Shown here: piece by piece, positions 8,268-17,396 of the stretch
How the letters are laid out: each line of letters opens with the position of its first letter
How positions within the stretch are numbered: the first letter of the stretch is position 1
DNA from: Phycisphaera sp.
GTDB lineage: Bacteria > Planctomycetota > Phycisphaerae > Phycisphaerales > UBA1924
DNA length: 64,000 bases
Assembly (NCBI GenBank): GCA_025916675.1
Contig: CP098402.1
Span: forward strand, 1,669,205 to 1,733,204
Reading direction: 5' to 3'
The notes under the pieces: generated by a model
Seen by the model: only the letters and a program-made list of their open reading frames with translations
Databases searched by the model: none
Told to the model about the DNA's origin: nothing
Program-made: the position numbers and the translations under genes

Positions 8268-9422
8268 TCAATCCACGTCATCCTCATCGAGCTCGGGACG
8301 ACCGATCGTCTTGCCGGCCTGATGGACTCGATCACGAAGCGCACCAGGATCCTTGCCCTTATCAACCATCTCCTCGGCGCTGATGATGCCCTTGGTGTAC
8401 AGGCTCCACAGGTGGTCATCGAGGAGCTGCATGCCGAACTTGGCACCGGTCTGGATCGAGGAATCGATGCGGAAGGTCTTGCCCTCGCGGATCAGGTTGG
8501 CGATCGCGGGAGTCACCAGCAGGAACTCGTAGGCCGCGATCCGGCCCGGCTTATCGACCCTCTTCAGCAGGGCCTGGCTGAGCACCGCGATGAGGGCAGT
8601 CGAGAGCTGCACGCGGATCTGGTTTTGCTGGCTGACGGGGAAGGCGTCGACCACGCGGTCGATCGTCTTGGCGGCACCGGTGGTGTGCAAGGTGCCGAAC
8701 ACCAAGTGACCGGTTTCGGCGGCCCGGATGGCCGCCTCGATGGTCTCAAGGTCACGCATCTCGCCCACCAGGATCACGTCCGGGTCGGAGCGGAGCACGC
8801 GGCGGAGGGCCTCGGCGAAGCTGGGCACGTCGTTGCCCACCTCACGCTGGTTGACCACGCTCTTCTTGTGGTAGTGGAAGTACTCGATGGGGTCTTCCAT
8901 CGTCACGATGTGGCGGTCGTAGTAGGTGTTGATGTAGTCCAGCACCGTCGCGAGGCTGGTGGTCTTGCCCGAGCCGGTGGGCCCGGTCACCAGGAACAGG
9001 CCACGGGGGCGGCGGCTGAGGTCGCGGACCGCCTCGGGCAGGCCGATCTGCTCGAATGTCAGCAGCTCGTTCGGGATGAGGCGGAGCACCAAAGCGAGAT
9101 CGCCGCGCTGCTTGAAGATCGACACACGAAAGCGGGCCGCATCGCCGTAGCCGAAGCCGAAGTCGGTACCGCCCATCTCGTTGATTTCTTGCTGGTTCCG
9201 TTCGGGCGTAATCGACTTCATGAGCGAGACCATGTCGTCCGAGTCGAGCACCTTGGTCTCGAGATTCTTGAGGCCACCGTGCAAGCGGACGGTGGGCTTG
9301 CGGCCCACGGTCAGATGCAGGTCGCTCGCGCCCGTGCGGACCACGGTGTCGAGCAAACGGTCGATCTGGACGGTGGCCCCACCCGTCGGGGCCGAACCTG
9401 AGTCTTCGTCGTATGACGCCAT
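8268..9422 (-). CDS. pilT: Type IV pilus twitching-motility/retraction ATPase (PilT), copy 1
   Basis: 384-aa retraction ATPase. It starts with the PilT-type domain (IDRLLDTVVRTGASDLHLTVG) and has Walker A GPTGSGKT at 147-154, the Asp box (MEDPIEYFH), Walker B (VILVGEMRDLETIEAA) and the His box (HLVFGTLHTTGAAKTIDRV). The PilT signature AIRNLIRE is present in variant form (TPAIANLIREGK). SD GAGGAG lies 7 nt before the ATG at 9422. It is sandwiched between two PilB-type ATPases; its presence argues for a retractable pilus rather than a pure T2SS. Confidence 0.93.
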   Translation of the reverse strand: MASYDEDSGSAPTGGATVQIDRLLDTVVRTGASDLHLTVGRKPTVRLHGGLKNLETKVLDSDDMVSLMKSITPERNQQEINEMGGTDFGFGYGDAARFRVSIFKQRGDLALVLRLIPNELLTFEQIGLPEAVRDLSRRPRGLFLVTGPTGSGKTTSLATVLDYINTYYDRHIVTMEDPIEYFHYHKKSVVNQREVGNDVPSFAEALRRVLRSDPDVILVGEMRDLETIEAAIRAAETGHLVFGTLHTTGAAKTIDRVVDAFPVSQQNQIRVQLSTALIAVLSQALLKRVDKPGRIAAYEFLLVTPAIANLIREGKTFRIDSSIQTGAKFGMQLLDDHLWSLYTKGIISAEEMVDKGKDPGALRDRVHQAGKTIGRPELDEDDVD

Positions 9423-9477
9423 CGATGCACTCCTCGAAACAGGCGAGCCGTCCATACCGGTCCGACTCGCGATGGGT

Positions 9478-11199
9478 TCAGTCTGCGGTCTGGGTCACGC
9501 GGGCGACCTCGGCGGGGGTCGTCAGCCCCTTCAGGATCTTGCGTTTGCCATCCTCGGTCAGGGTCTTCATGCCACTCTTCAGGGCCGCGACACGCAGCTC
9601 GGCCACGGGCGCTTTTCGGAAAGCCATCTCGCGGATATCGCTGTTCATGATCATCATCTCGAAGATGGCCTTGCGGCCCTTGTAGCCGGTGGGCACGTCG
9701 GGCGCACTGCCTGGCTTATAGACCTTGCCTTCCCACTCACCCGGCTTGATGCCGCACAGATGCAGGAACTTCGGATCGGGCTCGTCATCGAGTACCTTGC
9801 TGGGCTGGTGCAGCATGCGGATGAGGCGCTGGGCCATGACCGCCTGGATCGAGCTGGCCACGAGGAAGGGCTTGATGCCCATGTCGATAAGGCGCGTGAT
9901 CGCGCTCGGGGCGTCGTTGGTGTGCAACGTGCTAAACACCAGGTGGCCCGTCAGGGCGGCCTGGATGGCGATCTCGCCCACTTCCTTATCGCGAATCTCA
10001 CCCACAAGGATGATGTTGGGCGCTTGACGCAGCATGCTCCGAAGGATCGCCGGGAACGACAGCCCAATCGACTCGCGCACCTGGCACTGGTTGATGCCCT
10101 CGAAGTTGTACTCCACTGGGTCTTCCGCCGTGATGATCTTGCGATCGGGGCGGTTGAGCACGTCGAGCGCCGAGTACAGCGTGGTCGTCTTGCCCGAACC
10201 GGTGGGCCCGGTCACCAGGAAGATGCCGTTGGGCCGGCGAATAATCTTATTGAAGACGTCCAGGTTGTCCTGCTCGAAGCCCAGGTTCACCAGGCCGATG
10301 CGCACCGCGTCTGGCCGCAGGATACGCAGCACGACGCTCTCTCCGTGGTACGTTGGGCAGGCCGACACACGAAAATCGATGTCGGTCTCGTCGACGGGCA
10401 GTTTGATGCGGCCATCCTGAGGGACGCGCTTCTCGGCGATGTTCATGCCCGCGCTCAGCTTCACGCGGCTGAGCAAGGAGTTCTGCATGCGCTTGGGCAG
10501 GTTGTCGCGCTCGATGCACACGCCGTCGATCCGGTACCGCAGCCGCACCCGGTCGTTCATTGGCTCGATATGGACATCACTGGCCCGCATCCGGACGGCC
10601 TCGCTCAGGATGCGGTTGACCAGCTTGACGATCGGCGCGTCCTCGGACGCAACATCGATGGACTTATCGACCGAGCGATCGACCGAGCGGTCGATCGAGG
10701 CGGTAACCAGCCCCTTCTCTCCGGGCTTGCCCTCTTGCGCGGGGGCCGCGGGGGCGGCCTGCCCGTTTTCTGCCCCACCGTCGAGGAAGGTTCGGATGGC
10801 GGTCTTGGAGGCCAGCAGCGGGTCGATCTCGAGGTTCAACCGGAACCGCAGCATGTCCTGGAGTTCCAGATCCATGGGATCCGAAACGATCAGCTTGAGG
10901 CGGCCGCCGTCCTTTGAGACCGGCAGCACCATGTGCTTGCGGACGATCTCCTTGGGGATCAGCTCGAGTTGGACGGTGCTCTTGGTTTCCGCCTCGTTGG
11001 GGTTGACATACGGCACGCCGTACTGGTCGGCCAGGGCCTTGGCGACCTGCTCGTCGGTGGCAAAGCCCGCCTCGACGAGCGCTTGGCCGATGCGGCGGCG
11101 TGAGCCCTTGGCGATGCCAAGGGCTTTGTCCATGTCTTCCTGGCTGACCACGCCATCGGCCACCAGGATCTCACCGAGTTTCTTACGATTTCGTGCCAT
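9478..11199 (-). CDS. pilB: Pilus assembly / secretion ATPase (PilB/GspE), copy 2
   Basis: 573-aa second assembly ATPase, first gene of locus 1. It has a tandem MshEN-like motif at residues 7-62 (LGEILVADGVVSQEDMDKAL and its repeat after RRRIG), then Walker A GPTGSGKT at 331-338, Walker B ILVGEIRDKEVGEIA and His box LVFSTLHTNDAPSAITRL. A linker near residue 175 is an odd Ser-Ile/Val-Asp-Arg repeat (SIDRSVDRSVDKSID). As in copy 1, the C-terminal zinc tetracysteine is missing. No convincing SD is visible before the ATG at 11199. The protein differs from copy 1 through its length, so it may drive a different pseudopilus (inference). Confidence 0.92.
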   Translation of the reverse strand: MARNRKKLGEILVADGVVSQEDMDKALGIAKGSRRRIGQALVEAGFATDEQVAKALADQYGVPYVNPNEAETKSTVQLELIPKEIVRKHMVLPVSKDGGRLKLIVSDPMDLELQDMLRFRLNLEIDPLLASKTAIRTFLDGGAENGQAAPAAPAQEGKPGEKGLVTASIDRSVDRSVDKSIDVASEDAPIVKLVNRILSEAVRMRASDVHIEPMNDRVRLRYRIDGVCIERDNLPKRMQNSLLSRVKLSAGMNIAEKRVPQDGRIKLPVDETDIDFRVSACPTYHGESVVLRILRPDAVRIGLVNLGFEQDNLDVFNKIIRRPNGIFLVTGPTGSGKTTTLYSALDVLNRPDRKIITAEDPVEYNFEGINQCQVRESIGLSFPAILRSMLRQAPNIILVGEIRDKEVGEIAIQAALTGHLVFSTLHTNDAPSAITRLIDMGIKPFLVASSIQAVMAQRLIRMLHQPSKVLDDEPDPKFLHLCGIKPGEWEGKVYKPGSAPDVPTGYKGRKAIFEMMIMNSDIREMAFRKAPVAELRVAALKSGMKTLTEDGKRKILKGLTTPAEVARVTQTAD

Positions 11200-11401: not shown

Positions 11402-12151
11402 ATGCCGATCCATCCTTCAGGTGACACGCCGGATTCGTCTCCCGCTTCGGTGCTCATCGTCGCCGGACCCACGCACGAGCCTATCGACGCCGTCCGTTAC
11501 ATCGCGAACCGTTCATCGGGCAGTTTGGGTGTGGCCCTGGCAGACGCGGCCAGAGCGCGGGATTGTCGCACCACGATGCTGATGGGACCGGGCGGGATCG
11601 CCACCGAGAAACTGACCAATACCCGAACGGGGCCAGCGAACGCCGACCCCGAGCAAGCACCAGATTCGCCCGAACGGGTCCTGCGGTTCCGATCGTCCCA
11701 TGATCTCCAGGCCCTCTTATTAAGAGAAGCCGCCGGCTGTGACCTGCTGATCATGGCCGCCGCCGTCGCGGACTACCGCCCGGCCAGCCCCCACCCGGGT
11801 AAGTTGCCTCGGACCGGCGATGCCCTGACCATCACCCTCGAGCCGGTGCCGGACCTGCTTGCCCTGGCCACCGGCAGGCTCCGCCCCGGCGCGATCGCCG
11901 TCGGCTTCGCGCTCGAAGAGAATGCTGGCGATCACGAACGGGCGAAGGCCAAGATGGCCCGGAAGGGATGCCGGGCGATCGTCCTCAACCCGCTGGCCAC
12001 GATGGACTCGGGCGGCATCGACGCCACAATCCTCTTTGCCGATGGATCGCCGCCGGTGATCCCCGGCCCACTCAGCAAAACCGAATTTGCCAGCCGCCTT
12101 GTCGATGTGGCGCTCGGCCTGTGGGCGTCGGCCCGAGGAAACGCCCCGTGA
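11402..12151 (+). CDS. coaB: Phosphopantothenate-cysteine ligase (CoaB), stand-alone
   Basis: 249-aa enzyme of coenzyme A synthesis, joining 4'-phosphopantothenate to cysteine using a nucleotide triphosphate. The CoaB signature GPTHEPIDAVRYIANRSSG is at residues 22-40, and other family features are MAAAVADYRP, VGFALEEN and A-x-x-K..R-K-G-x-x-x-I-V-L-N. The family is usually the C-terminal half of bifunctional CoaBC (about 400 aa); here the flavin-dependent decarboxylase half (CoaC) is absent and no copy is seen elsewhere in the window. It overlaps the next gene by a GTGA. Its promoter should lie in the 202-bp divergent gap to pilB2. Confidence 0.87.
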   Translation: MPIHPSGDTPDSSPASVLIVAGPTHEPIDAVRYIANRSSGSLGVALADAARARDCRTTMLMGPGGIATEKLTNTRTGPANADPEQAPDSPERVLRFRSSHDLQALLLREAAGCDLLIMAAAVADYRPASPHPGKLPRTGDALTITLEPVPDLLALATGRLRPGAIAVGFALEENAGDHERAKAKMARKGCRAIVLNPLATMDSGGIDATILFADGSPPVIPGPLSKTEFASRLVDVALGLWASARGNAP

Positions 12152-13863
12152 GCCCCGCACCCAGAAAGCCAACCGGCAAGCCCGCCAAGAAGCCCGCGCG
12201 GTCGGACCCGTCCCAGCACGTGGAGTTCCGCCCCCGCCAGCATGTGCGTGGGACGATCTCCAAGGCCAGGACGCCCCTGGCCCGCCCCACCATCCTGGGG
12301 GAGCACGACGGCATCGTGGTGGTCGACAAGCCCGCGGGAGTCGTTACCGCCGACAAGGACCCCAACCGCGATACGGCCCACTCGCACGTCAAACGCTGGC
12401 TCAAGAACACCCGGCCCGACGCACGCGTGTGGGTGGTGCATCGCCTGGACAAGGACGCCAGCGGGCTCGTGCTCTTCGCCACCACGCCCGAGACCTACGG
12501 CTGGCTCAAGGAAGACCTCCGCGCCCACCGGGTCGAACGCGAATACACGGCGATCGTCCATGGCGTGCCATCCTGGAAGGGCGAGCACACGCTGGCCGAC
12601 CAATTGCTCGACGGACCGGAATTGCGGAAGGTCATGGTCGCCCCGCCGCACCAGACCCATGGCGGACGCAACGCCGTCACGCACGCACGCGTCGTCGCGC
12701 GGGGCAAGGGCCGCGCGATGGTGGCGCTGCGACTTGAGACCGGCCGCCGGCACCAGCTCCGCGTCCAGCTTGCGCACGCGGGGCATCCCATCCTGGGCGA
12801 TCGGCTCTATGGCCCGGAACCCGAGCCATCGGGCGGAAAGGGCGCCGGCAAGAAGAACAAGAACCAGCGGCTCTGCCTGCACGCGAGCAAGCTCACGCTG
12901 CACCATCCGGGCACGGGCCAGAAGCTGGCGTTCGAGGCCCCACCCCCGCCGCGGTTCTTTACGCTGGTGGGCGAGAAGGCCACCGATGAGAGCCGCGAAG
13001 CGGCGAAGGAACCTGCGGCCCCGACCCTGAACGCCCAACCCCAGCAGACCACCGCCCGGGGTTGGAACCACGTGGCCGCGTGGTACGACAAGCTCGTGGG
13101 CGAGGGCCACAGCGATCACCACTCGGCGGTCATCATCCCCGGGGCGCTGCGATTGCTCGACCTGCGCGATGGCGAGCAGCTCCTGGACGTCGCCTGCGGC
13201 GAGGGCGTGCTGGCACGTGCGGCGGCGCAGCTGGGGGTGCGTGTCACGGGTATCGACGCCTCACCCAAGCTCATCGAGTCGGCCACGCAGCGTGCCGGAA
13301 AGAACGAACGCTACACCACCGGCGACGCGCGCCGGCTCGAGGCGCTCGGGCTCGAACCCGAGTTTGACGCCGTGAGTTGTATCATGGCACTCATGAATAT
13401 CGACACGATCGAAGCGGTGTTCCGGGGCGCTGCGGATCTGCTTAAGCCCGGCGGCCGATTCGTGGCAGTGGTGCTCCACCCGGCCTTTCGCGCCCCCGGA
13501 CAGACCGCGTGGCAATGGGACGAGGAAGCCGACCAGCGTGAAACCGCCGGCCGCGCTCCGAAACGAACGCAACGGCAGTTCCGCCGCGTCGATGGTTATC
13601 TGACGCCCTACGCGCACCCCATCGTGATGAACCCCGGCGCTGCGGCCCGAGGCCGTAAGCCGATCACCACCGTCACCCACCATCGCCCGCTGCAGGCCTA
13701 TGCCGCCGCGCTCTCGCGGTGCGGATTCGCGATCGAAGCGATCGAAGAGTGGCCCAGCCAGCGCACGAGCGAGCCGGGACCCCGCGCCGACGAAGAGAAC
13801 CGCGCCCGCCGCGAGATCCCACTGTTTCTGGCATGGCGGGCACGGCTGGCACGGGGCACATAG
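12148..13863 (+). CDS. RluA-type pseudouridine synthase fused to SAM-dependent methyltransferase
   Basis: 571 aa with two enzymatic domains. Residues about 45-275 are an RluA/RsuA-superfamily pseudouridine synthase: VVDKPAGVV, then HRLDKDASG at 98-106 with catalytic Asp101, then RRHQLRVQLAHAGHPILGD. A linker rich in Ala/Pro/Gln (about 276-305) leads to a class I methyltransferase (about 306-571) with AdoMet motif I LLDVACGEGVLARAAAQLG near 342-360, then VTGIDAS and LKPGGRFVAVVLHP. There is no frameshift or stop between the domains. No S4 domain is visible. The GTG start at 12148 overlaps the coaB stop (GTGA). The RNA target is unknown. Confidence 0.88.
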   Translation: MSPAPRKPTGKPAKKPARSDPSQHVEFRPRQHVRGTISKARTPLARPTILGEHDGIVVVDKPAGVVTADKDPNRDTAHSHVKRWLKNTRPDARVWVVHRLDKDASGLVLFATTPETYGWLKEDLRAHRVEREYTAIVHGVPSWKGEHTLADQLLDGPELRKVMVAPPHQTHGGRNAVTHARVVARGKGRAMVALRLETGRRHQLRVQLAHAGHPILGDRLYGPEPEPSGGKGAGKKNKNQRLCLHASKLTLHHPGTGQKLAFEAPPPPRFFTLVGEKATDESREAAKEPAAPTLNAQPQQTTARGWNHVAAWYDKLVGEGHSDHHSAVIIPGALRLLDLRDGEQLLDVACGEGVLARAAAQLGVRVTGIDASPKLIESATQRAGKNERYTTGDARRLEALGLEPEFDAVSCIMALMNIDTIEAVFRGAADLLKPGGRFVAVVLHPAFRAPGQTAWQWDEEADQRETAGRAPKRTQRQFRRVDGYLTPYAHPIVMNPGAAARGRKPITTVTHHRPLQAYAAALSRCGFAIEAIEEWPSQRTSEPGPRADEENRARREIPLFLAWRARLARGT

Positions 13864-13886: not shown

Positions 13887-14609
13887 TCACCCGCACCCAG
13901 CATCGAACTCGTTCTGGAACGCCAGAAAATCAAAAATGGTCAGCACGCCATCGCCATCGAAATCGGCGAGCGGGTCGCCGGCGTCGAATGCGTTCTGGAA
14001 GGCCAGAAAGTCGAAGATGGTAAGGCTACCGTCGCCGTCGATGTCGGCCCGACACGCGGCCCCAACACCAACATAGAGATCGTCGAGGCCCCAACCCATC
14101 GGGTTTACGACGGTGATGGTAACGCGTGCGATGTCCGCGTCCGTGGTGACGCCAAAGAAATCGAGGGTCTCGAAATCACCGTCGGACATGACCAATTCGA
14201 TCTCGTCCCCCGAGGCATCGAAGGCGCGCAAGACAGCACCATTCGGAAACGAGCCGAATCGGATGTTGTGGACGCCGAACGCTCGGACCCCGCCCCCTGT
14301 GACGTTCACATCGAAGAAGATGTCTTGGCCCACCCTGGTGTCGTTGTCCCACGAGTGGGGCGGTGAGACCGTCACGATCACCGTGTCCGTGATGAAATTC
14401 CCCGGCGGGAAGTCCAACCCGTAGTCGGCGTATAGCGAACCGAGTTCGCCGACTACGGTGGGCGAACCGTCCGGCAAGGTGTCGAAGTCAACCAACTGCA
14501 GATCCGACGCCGCAGCGATGAAATCGGCCAGATCGTTGAACGGCGTGGCGAGCGTCGTCGAGGCAATCGATCCGGCAAGAAAAACCGCAAGTCTCGATCG
14601 CGTGAACAT
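13887..14609 (-). CDS. Secreted protein with C-terminal dockerin-like GC tail
   Basis: 240 aa. The signal peptide is at about residues 1-22 (MFTRSRLAVFLAGSIASTTLA). It is followed by a beta-rich domain of about 155 residues that resembles single-domain exoproteins (VDFDTLPDG...GLDFPPGNF) but has no assignable function. The C-terminus has two dockerin-type Ca2+ loops, DIDGDGSLTIFDFLAFQ and DFDGDGVLTIFDFLAFQ, joined by NAFDAGDPLA, and ends DAGCG. The start at 14609 directly begins the signal peptide; a GGGGGA lies upstream. It is downstream of, and collinear with, the subtilisin bearing the same tail. Confidence 0.85.
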   Translation of the reverse strand: MFTRSRLAVFLAGSIASTTLATPFNDLADFIAAASDLQLVDFDTLPDGSPTVVGELGSLYADYGLDFPPGNFITDTVIVTVSPPHSWDNDTRVGQDIFFDVNVTGGGVRAFGVHNIRFGSFPNGAVLRAFDASGDEIELVMSDGDFETLDFFGVTTDADIARVTITVVNPMGWGLDDLYVGVGAACRADIDGDGSLTIFDFLAFQNAFDAGDPLADFDGDGVLTIFDFLAFQNEFDAGCG

Positions 14610-14628
14610 GTCTGATCCCCCACAACAA

Positions 14629-14662
14629 CTCGCCACGAGTGCCACACGACACCCGTGGCGAG
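14629..14662. terminator. Inverted repeat between GC-tailed subtilisin and GC-tailed exoprotein
   Basis: Perfect 9-bp arms (ctcgccacg at 14629-14637 and cgtggcgag at 14654-14662) with a 16-nt loop, just after the protease stop codon. On the minus strand the hairpin is followed by TTGTTGT, so a weak terminator or processing element is plausible. Confidence 0.4.
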
Positions 14663-14671
14663 CTGCTCAGG

Positions 14672-16156
14672 CTAACACCCAGCGTCAAACGCGTTCTGGA
14701 AGGCGAGGAAGTCGAACAGCGTCAGGCTGCCGTCCCCGTCCAGATCGGCGCTCGGGTCGCCCATGTCGAAGGCGTTCTGGTACGCCAGGAAGTCGAACAG
14801 CGTCAATTCGCCATCGCCATCAAAGTCAGCCGCGCAACCAGCTCCACCGGCCGCGACAACCGCCTCGAACGCGTCCACGCGGCCGTAGCCGTAGGTTGGG
14901 TCGAAGCCCGGTGTGCCTAGATCGACCGAGGTAGTCTCCAGGATATCCTGGACTTCCAAGCGGGTGAGGTCGGGGTTCACGCTCAGCATGAGCCCGACGA
15001 CACCGGCCACGTGCGGGGTGGCCATCGACGTGCCGCTCTGGAGGGCGTAGCCATCGGTCGGGCCGAAGAGGGCAAGCGTGTCCCAGGTGCTCCACACGTC
15101 CACGCCCGGGGCGGTCACGGTCATCTCGGGGCCGGTGGTCGTAAAGCTGGCGATGGTGTCGCGGTTGTCGCTGGCACCGACGGCGATGGTTGCGTCGAAC
15201 TTGGCGGGCGCAAAGATCGGGACGCCGGCGGTGTTGCCCGTGGCGGCCACGAGCACCACGTCCAGATCGGCCGCGTAGTTCACGGCGTTCTCGAGCACCG
15301 CACCAAAGTCGGGCGATCCCAGGCTCAGGCTGATGACATCGGCACCATTGTCGGCGGCCCACACAATGCCCGCGGCGATATCGGCCTCGGTGCCCGTGCC
15401 CAGGAAGCCCAGGACCTTGACCGGCAGGATCGAGCAATCCCAGCCCACGCCGGCGATGCCCGTGCCGTTGTCGGTGTCGGCGCTGGCGATGCCGGCGCAG
15501 TGGGTGCCGTGGCTGATGAAGATGTCGTCGTCCCAGCTCGCGCCTAGCGGGCTGTAGCCCGGCAGCACATTGGTCTGAAGGTCGGGATGGCTCTGGCTCA
15601 CACCGGTGTCGACGATGGCGATGACCGTGTCGGGATCACCCGTAGTGATCGTCCACGCCTCGGTCGCGTTGACGTCGGCACCGGGCGTGCCCGCGATACC
15701 GGCGATCGTCTGGCCCGTGTTGAGCAAGCCGTACTGCTGGCCGAAATCGGGATCGTCGGGTGTCACGCTCAGCACGCCGCCGATGCCCATGAGTTCGACG
15801 CGCTCGACGCCATCGGTTACGGATAGCAGAGCAATGGCCGCCTGGGCATCAACGCCCGGCATCAGCGTGGCGGTATAGAGCCGCGTCAGCGCGTGCTTCT
15901 CGGCCAGGGCCGCGTCTCGCGGAGCCTCGGCAAATGTCGGGGTCAGGGTTGCGACGCCGGGCAGAACGATGCCATCACCAACGCCCTGGGCCAAGCGGAT
16001 GGTCACGACGTCGCTGCGGAAACCACCCATCACGTCCGGGGCGTCAACCCGGCCGGTAAACGGCACGAAGCCCTCGGGCACGCCCCGGGCGTCACCAGCA
16101 AGGACGACACCCGAAAGAGCCAGCACCACGCCGCAAGCCAGTACAGTTCGCATCAT
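14672..16156 (-). CDS. Secreted subtilisin-like serine protease (S8) with dockerin-like GC tail
   Basis: 494 aa. The signal peptide is at residues 1-20, and a propeptide-like region runs to about 135. The subtilase domain has catalytic Asp183 (IVDTG), His216 (HGTHCAG), oxyanion Asn308 (ATGN) and Ser377 (SGTSMATPH), so all key residues are present. The C-terminus (441-494) has two Ca2+-binding dockerin-like loops ([16 protein letters not shown] and [16 protein letters not shown]) and ends FDAGC. Two adjacent ATGs exist; the first (16156) is 5-6 nt after GAAGGGA. It probably acts outside the cytoplasm and may process other exoproteins. The next gene downstream shares the tail. Confidence 0.93.
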   Translation of the reverse strand: MMRTVLACGVVLALSGVVLAGDARGVPEGFVPFTGRVDAPDVMGGFRSDVVTIRLAQGVGDGIVLPGVATLTPTFAEAPRDAALAEKHALTRLYTATLMPGVDAQAAIALLSVTDGVERVELMGIGGVLSVTPDDPDFGQQYGLLNTGQTIAGIAGTPGADVNATEAWTITTGDPDTVIAIVDTGVSQSHPDLQTNVLPGYSPLGASWDDDIFISHGTHCAGIASADTDNGTGIAGVGWDCSILPVKVLGFLGTGTEADIAAGIVWAADNGADVISLSLGSPDFGAVLENAVNYAADLDVVLVAATGNTAGVPIFAPAKFDATIAVGASDNRDTIASFTTTGPEMTVTAPGVDVWSTWDTLALFGPTDGYALQSGTSMATPHVAGVVGLMLSVNPDLTRLEVQDILETTSVDLGTPGFDPTYGYGRVDAFEAVVAAGGAGCAADFDGDGELTLFDFLAYQNAFDMGDPSADLDGDGSLTLFDFLAFQNAFDAGC

Positions 16157-16394
16157 TGAATTCCCTTCTCGTTGCCAGCCGGTGAAAATTCCAGCCCCAA
16201 AAAATGGATGCCACGAGCGAGCCCACCTCCCCGCGGGCCCGCCTCGCGGCATCCTCATCCTTGTACGCGCTCCCACCAGGGGCGCGTTACAGTGCCTTGC
16301 CGCCCGGAAGCCAGCCGATGCAGGACTTTCCGGACCCAACCGGCCTACGAACTGCCCCAGATTCCCGCTCCAACCACACGAGGACCGGCCCGCG

Positions 16395-17396
16395 ATGACC
16401 ACCACCACGCCCCTGCGCGACTTCATGGAACGCCACTACAAGCACTTCAACGCCGGCGTGGCCGTCCGTGCCGCCCGGGCCTACGAGGCGAATCTAGCCG
16501 CCGGCACCCCCATGTTCATGACGCTTGCCGGGGCCATGAGCACCGCCCAGATCGGCCGGTCGCTGGCCGAGATGATCCGCCAGAGCAAGGTCCATGCCAT
16601 CAGTTGCACGGGAGCCAACCTGGAAGAGGACGTGTTCAACCTGGTCGCCCACGACCATTACCACCATATCGACGACTGGCGTGCGCTATCCGAAGCCGAC
16701 GAAGTCGCGCTCGACGAGGGCGGCTTTCCACGCGTGACCGACGTGTGCATCCCCGAAGAAGCGGCGATGCAGAAGATCGAGGCCCACCTGATCAAGCGAT
16801 GGAAGGCCGCCAGCGCGAGGGGCGATCGCGCCTTGCCGCATCGATATCTCTACGACCTGCTGCTGAGTGGTGATCTCGAAGGTGGCTATCAGATCGACAC
16901 CAAGGACAGTTGGCTGCTCGCCGCGGCCGAGAAGGATTTGCCGCTGTTCGTGCCCGGCTGGGAAGACAGCACGCTGGGCAACATGTTCGTGGCCAACGCT
17001 GCGCGAGGCGGCTACTCGCTCGACACCGTGCTCGGCGGCACGAGCTACATGGCCTCGCTCATCGAGTGGTACGAGCGGACCGCTCGGGGCAAGGCCAAAG
17101 GCCCGGGCTTCTTCCAGGTGGGCGGGGGCATCGCCGGCGACTTCCCGATCTGTGTCGTTCCGACGATCAACCACGACATCTACCGTGACGAGGCCGACGC
17201 TGGCAAGCGTGTGCCGCGGTGGAGCTACTTCTGCCAGGTGTCCGATGCCACGACCAGCTACGGCGGCTACAGCGGTGCGGTGCCCAACGAGAAGATCACG
17301 TGGGGGAAGCTTGGCGCGGGTGAACCAAAATTCATGATCGAGAGCGACGCAACCATCGTGGTTCCGCTGATTTTTGGTTGGGTGCTGGGCTGGTAG
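16395..17396 (+). CDS. Deoxyhypusine synthase-like protein
   Basis: 333 aa, of the length and overall pattern of the deoxyhypusine synthase family, an NAD-dependent spermidine aminobutyl transferase: GAMSTAQIGRSLAEMI, ISCTGANLEEDVFNLVAHDHY, GNMFVANAARGG, QVGGGIAGDFPICVVPTINHD. The segment equivalent to the active-site lysine is conserved (ITWGK, Lys305), followed by ESDATIVVPLIF. Bacteria lack eIF5A, so true hypusine formation is unlikely; known bacterial relatives include homospermidine-synthase-like enzymes. Polyamine metabolism is the likely area, but the reaction is not provable here. It is divergent from the subtilisin across 238 bp in which I recognise no promoter. Confidence 0.85.
   Translation: MTTTTPLRDFMERHYKHFNAGVAVRAARAYEANLAAGTPMFMTLAGAMSTAQIGRSLAEMIRQSKVHAISCTGANLEEDVFNLVAHDHYHHIDDWRALSEADEVALDEGGFPRVTDVCIPEEAAMQKIEAHLIKRWKAASARGDRALPHRYLYDLLLSGDLEGGYQIDTKDSWLLAAAEKDLPLFVPGWEDSTLGNMFVANAARGGYSLDTVLGGTSYMASLIEWYERTARGKAKGPGFFQVGGGIAGDFPICVVPTINHDIYRDEADAGKRVPRWSYFCQVSDATTSYGGYSGAVPNEKITWGKLGAGEPKFMIESDATIVVPLIFGWVLGW

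Follow-up and report, generated by a model that had tools for sequence, protein, structure and literature searches.

A gene of Phycisphaera sp. encodes an RluA-type pseudouridine synthase (PUS) and a class I SAM methyltransferase (MT) in a single polypeptide, placing two RNA-modification-type chemistries on one chain. The fusion is carried across most of its bacterial family, where it occurs in nature both with an intact PUS half and in versions whose PUS half has decayed. With about even confidence, we read the protein as an RNA methyltransferase that uses its RluA-fold domain as an RNA-recognition module. No report of an RluA plus class I MT fusion was found in the open-access literature (subscription papers and preprints lay outside this scope); each part is already known, whereas this architecture and its repeatedly decayed half appear to be new.

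The fused gene and its two domains

The window, the 64,000-nucleotide stretch of DNA analysed here, contains a frame that is open throughout its 571 codons plus stop (Table 1), and both of its Pfam domains score over their cut-offs, in agreement with the sequence-only reading that had joined an RluA-type PUS and a class I MT in one open frame. HRLDKDASG and LLDVACGEGVLA are both found in the protein. The coaB-like frame upstream runs 4 bases into the fusion gene, its stop overlapping the GTG start. A relative (G004) supports this start, because a stop there leaves its stop-to-stop frame open from only 2 residues ahead of the aligned first residue. The coaB-like gene is a probable operon partner of the fusion gene.

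Table 1. Coordinates of the fused gene, its parts and the gene 5' of it, as positions in the window.
Feature	Position	Strand	Remarks
Fused gene, RluA-type PUS + class I SAM MT	12148..13863	+	571 aa, GTG start, stop included
Basic N-terminal tail, low confidence, residues ~1-46	12148..12285	+	Sequence; pLDDT block means 41-48 for residues 1-40
RluA-type pseudouridine synthase domain, residues ~47-283	12286..12996	+	Pfam; 2i82 fold; H98-R99-L100-D101, Y133, Q203, R205 present
HRLDKDASG codons, residues 98-106	12439..12465	+	Asp101 catalytic by homology
Linker, residues ~284-305	12997..13062	+	Low model confidence; segments 288-290 and 292-303 with pLDDT < 50
Class I SAM methyltransferase domain, residues 306-571	13063..13860	+	Pfam; 3e8s fold; motif I LDVACGEG at 346-353
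coaB-like gene (DFP domain), 5' of fusion gene	11402..12151	+	PF04127, E 8.7e-41

The linker had been put at 30 residues, which is a fair estimate: from the end of the RluA-HMM match to the MT match (with an MT query that begins at residue 301, chosen by hand) it measures 21 residues in the window protein, with a median of 29 and a range of 3-128 residues over 130 fusions. The AlphaFold model (mean pLDDT 84.7, pTM 0.62) has two well-predicted domains and a weak linker; structure prediction, proposed earlier as a check of domain packing, thus recovers the two domains but does not fix how they pack against each other.

The PUS half matches PseudoU_synth_2 (PF00849) at residues 56-210 with E 1.5e-27 and 97.1 bits against a gathering score of 26.8, contains R99 and D101 of the HRLD motif together with R205 of motif III, and in the predicted structure superimposes on 2i82 with Z 25.8 and rmsd 2.9 over 206 aligned residues. 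Every tested catalytic residue is present in the window's genus, and the RluA half there probably makes pseudouridine. It misses the NCBIfam cut-off of TIGR00005 (169.5 versus 192.7 bits), as do two further RluA-type genes that the genome carries (159.6 and 191.0 bits), and the protein falls below the NCBIfam equivalog cut-offs of RluD (119.6/351 bits), RluC (83.6/378), RluA (77.7/286) and TruC (89.6/328). An S4 domain is absent among its Pfam matches at E up to 1. A single-protein query of viral contigs, which reaches close relatives only, found no relative of the RluA half.

The MT half scores over the Pfam cut-offs of both Methyltransf_11 (residues 346-439, E 3.1e-17, 63.4 versus 21.2 bits) and Methyltransf_25 (62.3 versus 27 bits), and its predicted structure matches 3e8s with Z 26.4 and rmsd 2.2 over 216 aligned residues; the Pfam scores, motif I and the class I fold together identify it as a class I SAM-dependent MT. 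Among the best 25 of 63 NCBIfam families no MT model reached its cut-off (UbiG, BioC, PrmA and RlmD included), UbiG giving 50.3 bits against 102.95. An alignment of 13 sequences shows a distinctive C-terminal signature of the MT family, consisting of HPxFRxP, RPLxxY and EIPLFL.

The surroundings contain several other genes. The coaB-like gene carries the DFP domain only and is separate from coaC, for which either of two Flavoprotein-domain genes at other places in the genome (C1:58142 and C1:3097700) is a candidate. Two type II/IV secretion ATPase genes (8268-11199; PilT/PilB-like, T2SSE) are divergent from coaB, and many relatives, both those that have the fusion and those that lack it, keep pilB next to coaB. 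Among 130 wide loci, stand-alone and truncated loci included, coaB is present in 86 and pilB in 82. On the other side, two genes on the minus strand (13887-16426) end in similar repeats that are dockerin-like by eye and have no Pfam match, and one of the two carries a subtilase domain. A deoxyhypusine-synthase-family gene (PF01916) follows at 16395-17393, in a bacterium.

Distribution and origin of the fusion

At E up to 1e-25 the MT half is found in 128 of 163 genomes of the window's family and in 139 of 400 genomes of the order, 11 of the latter lying outside the family; at E up to 1e-20 it is found in 36 of 392 genomes drawn from the phylum. We gathered one MT frame per genome from 158 genomes (126 of the 128 in the family, 10 of the 11 in the order outside it, and 22 of 26 further ones in the phylum), leaving out two matches in the family that appear truncated (G064 and G103) and five outside it (G283, G553, G631, G640 and G673). 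The RluA HMM matches 131 of these 158 frames; the HMM and the 19 paralogues used here both derive from 8 genomes and were selected by a motif pattern in which the Asp position could be D, E, N or S. Apart from two loci at contig ends (G122 and G142), which are left out of the fusion counts, there are 130 fused frames, of which 124 belong to the family and 6 to other planctomycete families, and 26 stand-alone ones, one of which (G268) begins at a contig end and is of uncertain status.

All of the family loci read are therefore either fused (124/126) or cut by contig ends (2/126), so that this is not a joint frame confined to one genome with separate genes as its orthologues, an outcome that would have spoken against the earlier reading. 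A chance joint frame, an assembly artefact or a one-genome event is ruled out by 130 fused frames from 130 genomes, the window's genome itself being a single contig. Among the fusions listed in the comparison with the window protein, the PUS half is 27-82% identical to that of the window protein.

A scan of 84,980 species gave 11 fusions among 80 loci taken from at least 215 relatives, and all 11 are in records titled Phycisphaerales, Planctomycetaceae or Planctomycetota. The close stand-alone MT relatives among the matches listed are in records titled planctomycete, Prosthecobacter, Chloroflexi, Nitrospinota and CPR, and are mostly MAGs; those titled as CPR bacteria are L267, L268, L271, L284 and L293.

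In a FastTree of the 158 MT rows a single branch with local SH-like support of 99 parts all stand-alone rows from all fused ones, and one fusion event therefore suffices. The fused PUS halves likewise form one group in the PUS tree, with a weak support of 54, and this group adjoins separate RluA genes of G041 and G045 (support 76). In G041 the separate RluA gene immediately precedes that of the MT, and the pair plausibly represents the pre-fusion state; in the other 25 of the 26 stand-alone loci no RluA frame was found around the MT (flanks of ~1.5-6 kb, some limited by contig ends). The six fusions in other planctomycete families (L227 and L233 to L237) are nested inside the fusion clade, a placement that points to lateral transfer or to mis-binned contigs.

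The two halves occur as a unit, both present or both missing. Of the 35 genomes of the family in which no MT match was found, nineteen were tested, each at least 90% complete; 18 keep coaB, with pilB beside it in all 18, and neither an RluA nor an MT frame was found near coaB/pilB in these 18 (flanks up to 1.5 kb). With a PUS profile, the six intact fusions that were searched score 287-321 bits, whereas no match in the 19 fusion-less genomes exceeds 165 bits, which is what ordinary paralogues reach. Three of four degenerate fused halves score lower than ordinary paralogues, at 52-79 bits, and the profile could therefore miss a degenerate stand-alone PUS in those genomes.

Decay of the pseudouridine synthase signature

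We scored a PUS half as degenerate if R99, D101 or R205 differs in a MAFFT alignment, with G019, G134 and G135 counted as intact but borderline. All three residues are kept in 85 of the 130 fusions, among them 7 of 7 from the window's genus, and in 19 of 19 aligned paralogues, these having been chosen by motif pattern. The remaining 45 fusions are degenerate: R99 is changed in all of them, D101 in 11 (nine Glu, one Lys and one Pro) and R205 in 13, and K61, G106 and Q203 are kept in 45/45. On the MT trees the degenerate state takes 6-7 changes, at least 2-3 of them forced by well-supported branches, and loss of the catalytic Asp takes 7. The median RluA-HMM score falls from 178 bits in intact to 80 bits in degenerate fusions. 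In the MT half, motif I is matched in 128 of the 130 fusions; the HPxFR pattern is missing from three degenerate fusions, and 11 fusions (5 intact and 6 degenerate) do not match the C-terminal pattern E[IF]PxF.

Degenerate PUS halves are still under purifying selection. Between close pairs (24 of 25 computed, one PUS dS being saturated and some genomes occurring in two pairs) the PUS half has a dN/dS of 0.018-0.150 where it is degenerate (11 computable pairs) and of 0.025-0.139 where it is intact (12 pairs); for the MT half the values are 0.029-0.237. Outside the window's genus the PUS half is 27-40% identical versus 45-65% for the MT of fused rows, and because the PUS half diverges more than the MT over long distances, PUS change may come in bursts between lineages. 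The model of one degenerate member that keeps the Asp (L258) has the RluA fold (2i82, Z 21.1, rmsd 2.5, 190 aligned). This member is one of the 34 of 45 degenerate PUS halves in which the Asp is kept and which could have activity with altered specificity.

Proposed function and comparison with known systems

The RluA half is read as a targeting module because it has been kept by selection after the loss of catalytic residues while fused to an enzyme with a kept cofactor motif, and the MT is probably an RNA methyltransferase because RluA enzymes bind structured RNA (the title of 2i82 refers to protein-induced RNA structure). We propose that the RluA half would dock on structured RNA, with rRNA or a ribosome-assembly intermediate as the likeliest partner, and that the tethered class I MT would methylate that RNA close by. 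In the window's genus an RluA half with all tested catalytic residues would probably also form pseudouridine, and both activities are likely to be present there; in other branches, where catalytic residues are lost, it would act as a binding platform. We thus infer that RNA is the substrate, that the RluA half binds it and that the MT activity is the conserved one; the ribosomal target is a guess from the family. It is a tentative and rather less secure suggestion that this is a lineage-wide family in which a PUS has repeatedly turned into a non-catalytic RNA guide for a fused MT, writing a methyl mark that has been tied to no enzyme yet.

The closest rival to an RluA-guided RNA methyltransferase is an enzyme with two sites, each half modifying its own nucleotide in the same RNA region and one site being lost where the PUS half is degenerate. 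Mixed methyl/pseudouridine clusters do exist, as the adjacent m1G745 and pseudouridine-746 marks in bacterial 23S rRNA show (PMC6235398), the signature residues are intact in 85 of the 130 fusions, and the pattern of decay fits one activity being lost and the other retained. We nevertheless regard this as unlikely, since the degenerate PUS halves are under purifying selection and must therefore still do something.

A small-molecule or lipid substrate for the MT, with the fusion doing no more than coupling expression or stability, is more doubtful. The MT is of a generic class I type, the nearest solved structures among the matches listed are uncharacterised or mixed and include many small-molecule MTs (UbiG, ToxA and RebM), and most of the MT models among the best 25 of 63 NCBIfam families, all under their cut-offs, are for small molecules. 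The scanned neighbours of stand-alone MTs share neither an RNA theme nor any common theme among the ten examined, of which seven have a Pfam match (E up to 1e-4) and three do not; they include an oxidoreductase, superoxide dismutase, VanZ, folate/homocysteine enzymes, a flagellar rod protein, AAA and RDD. Against a small-molecule substrate, the two halves are present or absent together, most stand-alone relatives have basic tails, and some occur in records titled as CPR bacteria, which are not known to have most of the small-molecule and lipid pathways of such MTs. The N-terminal tails of stand-alone relatives have a median net charge of +0.15 per residue (38 of 42 rows usable) versus 0.0 for distant MTs (36 of 45 rows; Mann-Whitney p 2e-8, with rows of fewer than 12 tail residues dropped and the rows being related, some near-duplicate). 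Four of the 42 stand-alone MTs are almost tail-less (2-10 residues), two of them, L267 and L271, from CPR records. The fused window protein likewise starts with a basic tail, and these tails hint at a nucleic-acid substrate. Because most of the family shares the fusion, and because its halves occur together or not at all, mere coupling of expression, the second of two readings offered earlier, is less likely.

The first of those readings, in which the PUS half forms a pseudouridine and the MT half methylates the same residue, is improbable and is the weakest of the three: both active sites appear intact in the window's genus (7/7 genomes), but the MT persists in the 45 of 130 fusions with a degenerate PUS signature and as 26 stand-alone frames, 25 of them in loci whose flanks, as far as read, hold no RluA frame, and no SPOUT family is among the 15 Pfam families that match the window protein at E up to 1. 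The pseudouridine N-methylases RlmH, Nep1 and TrmY are SPOUT enzymes. A serial route to methyl-pseudouridine would require an active PUS half.

If the fusion is an RluA-guided RNA methyltransferase, the family may allow a methyl mark in planctomycete RNA to be assigned. With both intact and decayed versions available in nature, one can ask directly which of two properties preserves a modification enzyme, its chemistry or its grip on RNA.

Several known systems resemble parts of the fusion. The best-scoring solved sequences for the MT half are uncharacterised class I MTs of Pseudomonas putida (3e8s) and Mesorhizobium loti (3bkw), which are also among its best structural matches listed (Z 26.4 and 23.0); they are 23% and 29% identical to it, their entry titles give no substrate, and with chains of 220 and 219 residues they are too short to hold an RluA domain as well. 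Fungal RIB2/PUS8 is an RluA-type domain fused to a deaminase, and RlmKL consists of two fused MTs; they are precedents for RluA domains and rRNA MTs as parts of fusions, but the partners differ and neither is RluA plus class I MT. A PUA-MT fusion, described in PMC3714255, has a different architecture from RluA plus MT. E. coli RluA, RluC and RluD share the fold and signature of the PUS half (Z 25.8, 24.9 and 24.1 for 2i82, 1v9k and 1prz), but the window protein adds an MT domain, misses their equivalog cut-offs and is without an S4 match. Human RPUSD3 is an RluA-family protein that has lost the catalytic Asp and has no detected activity on rRNA or tRNA, according to the available part of PMC12716993, which mentions no MT domain; it differs in this from the fusions, and the window protein keeps the Asp, but it parallels the 11 Asp-less fusions and likewise raises the question of chemistry or grip.
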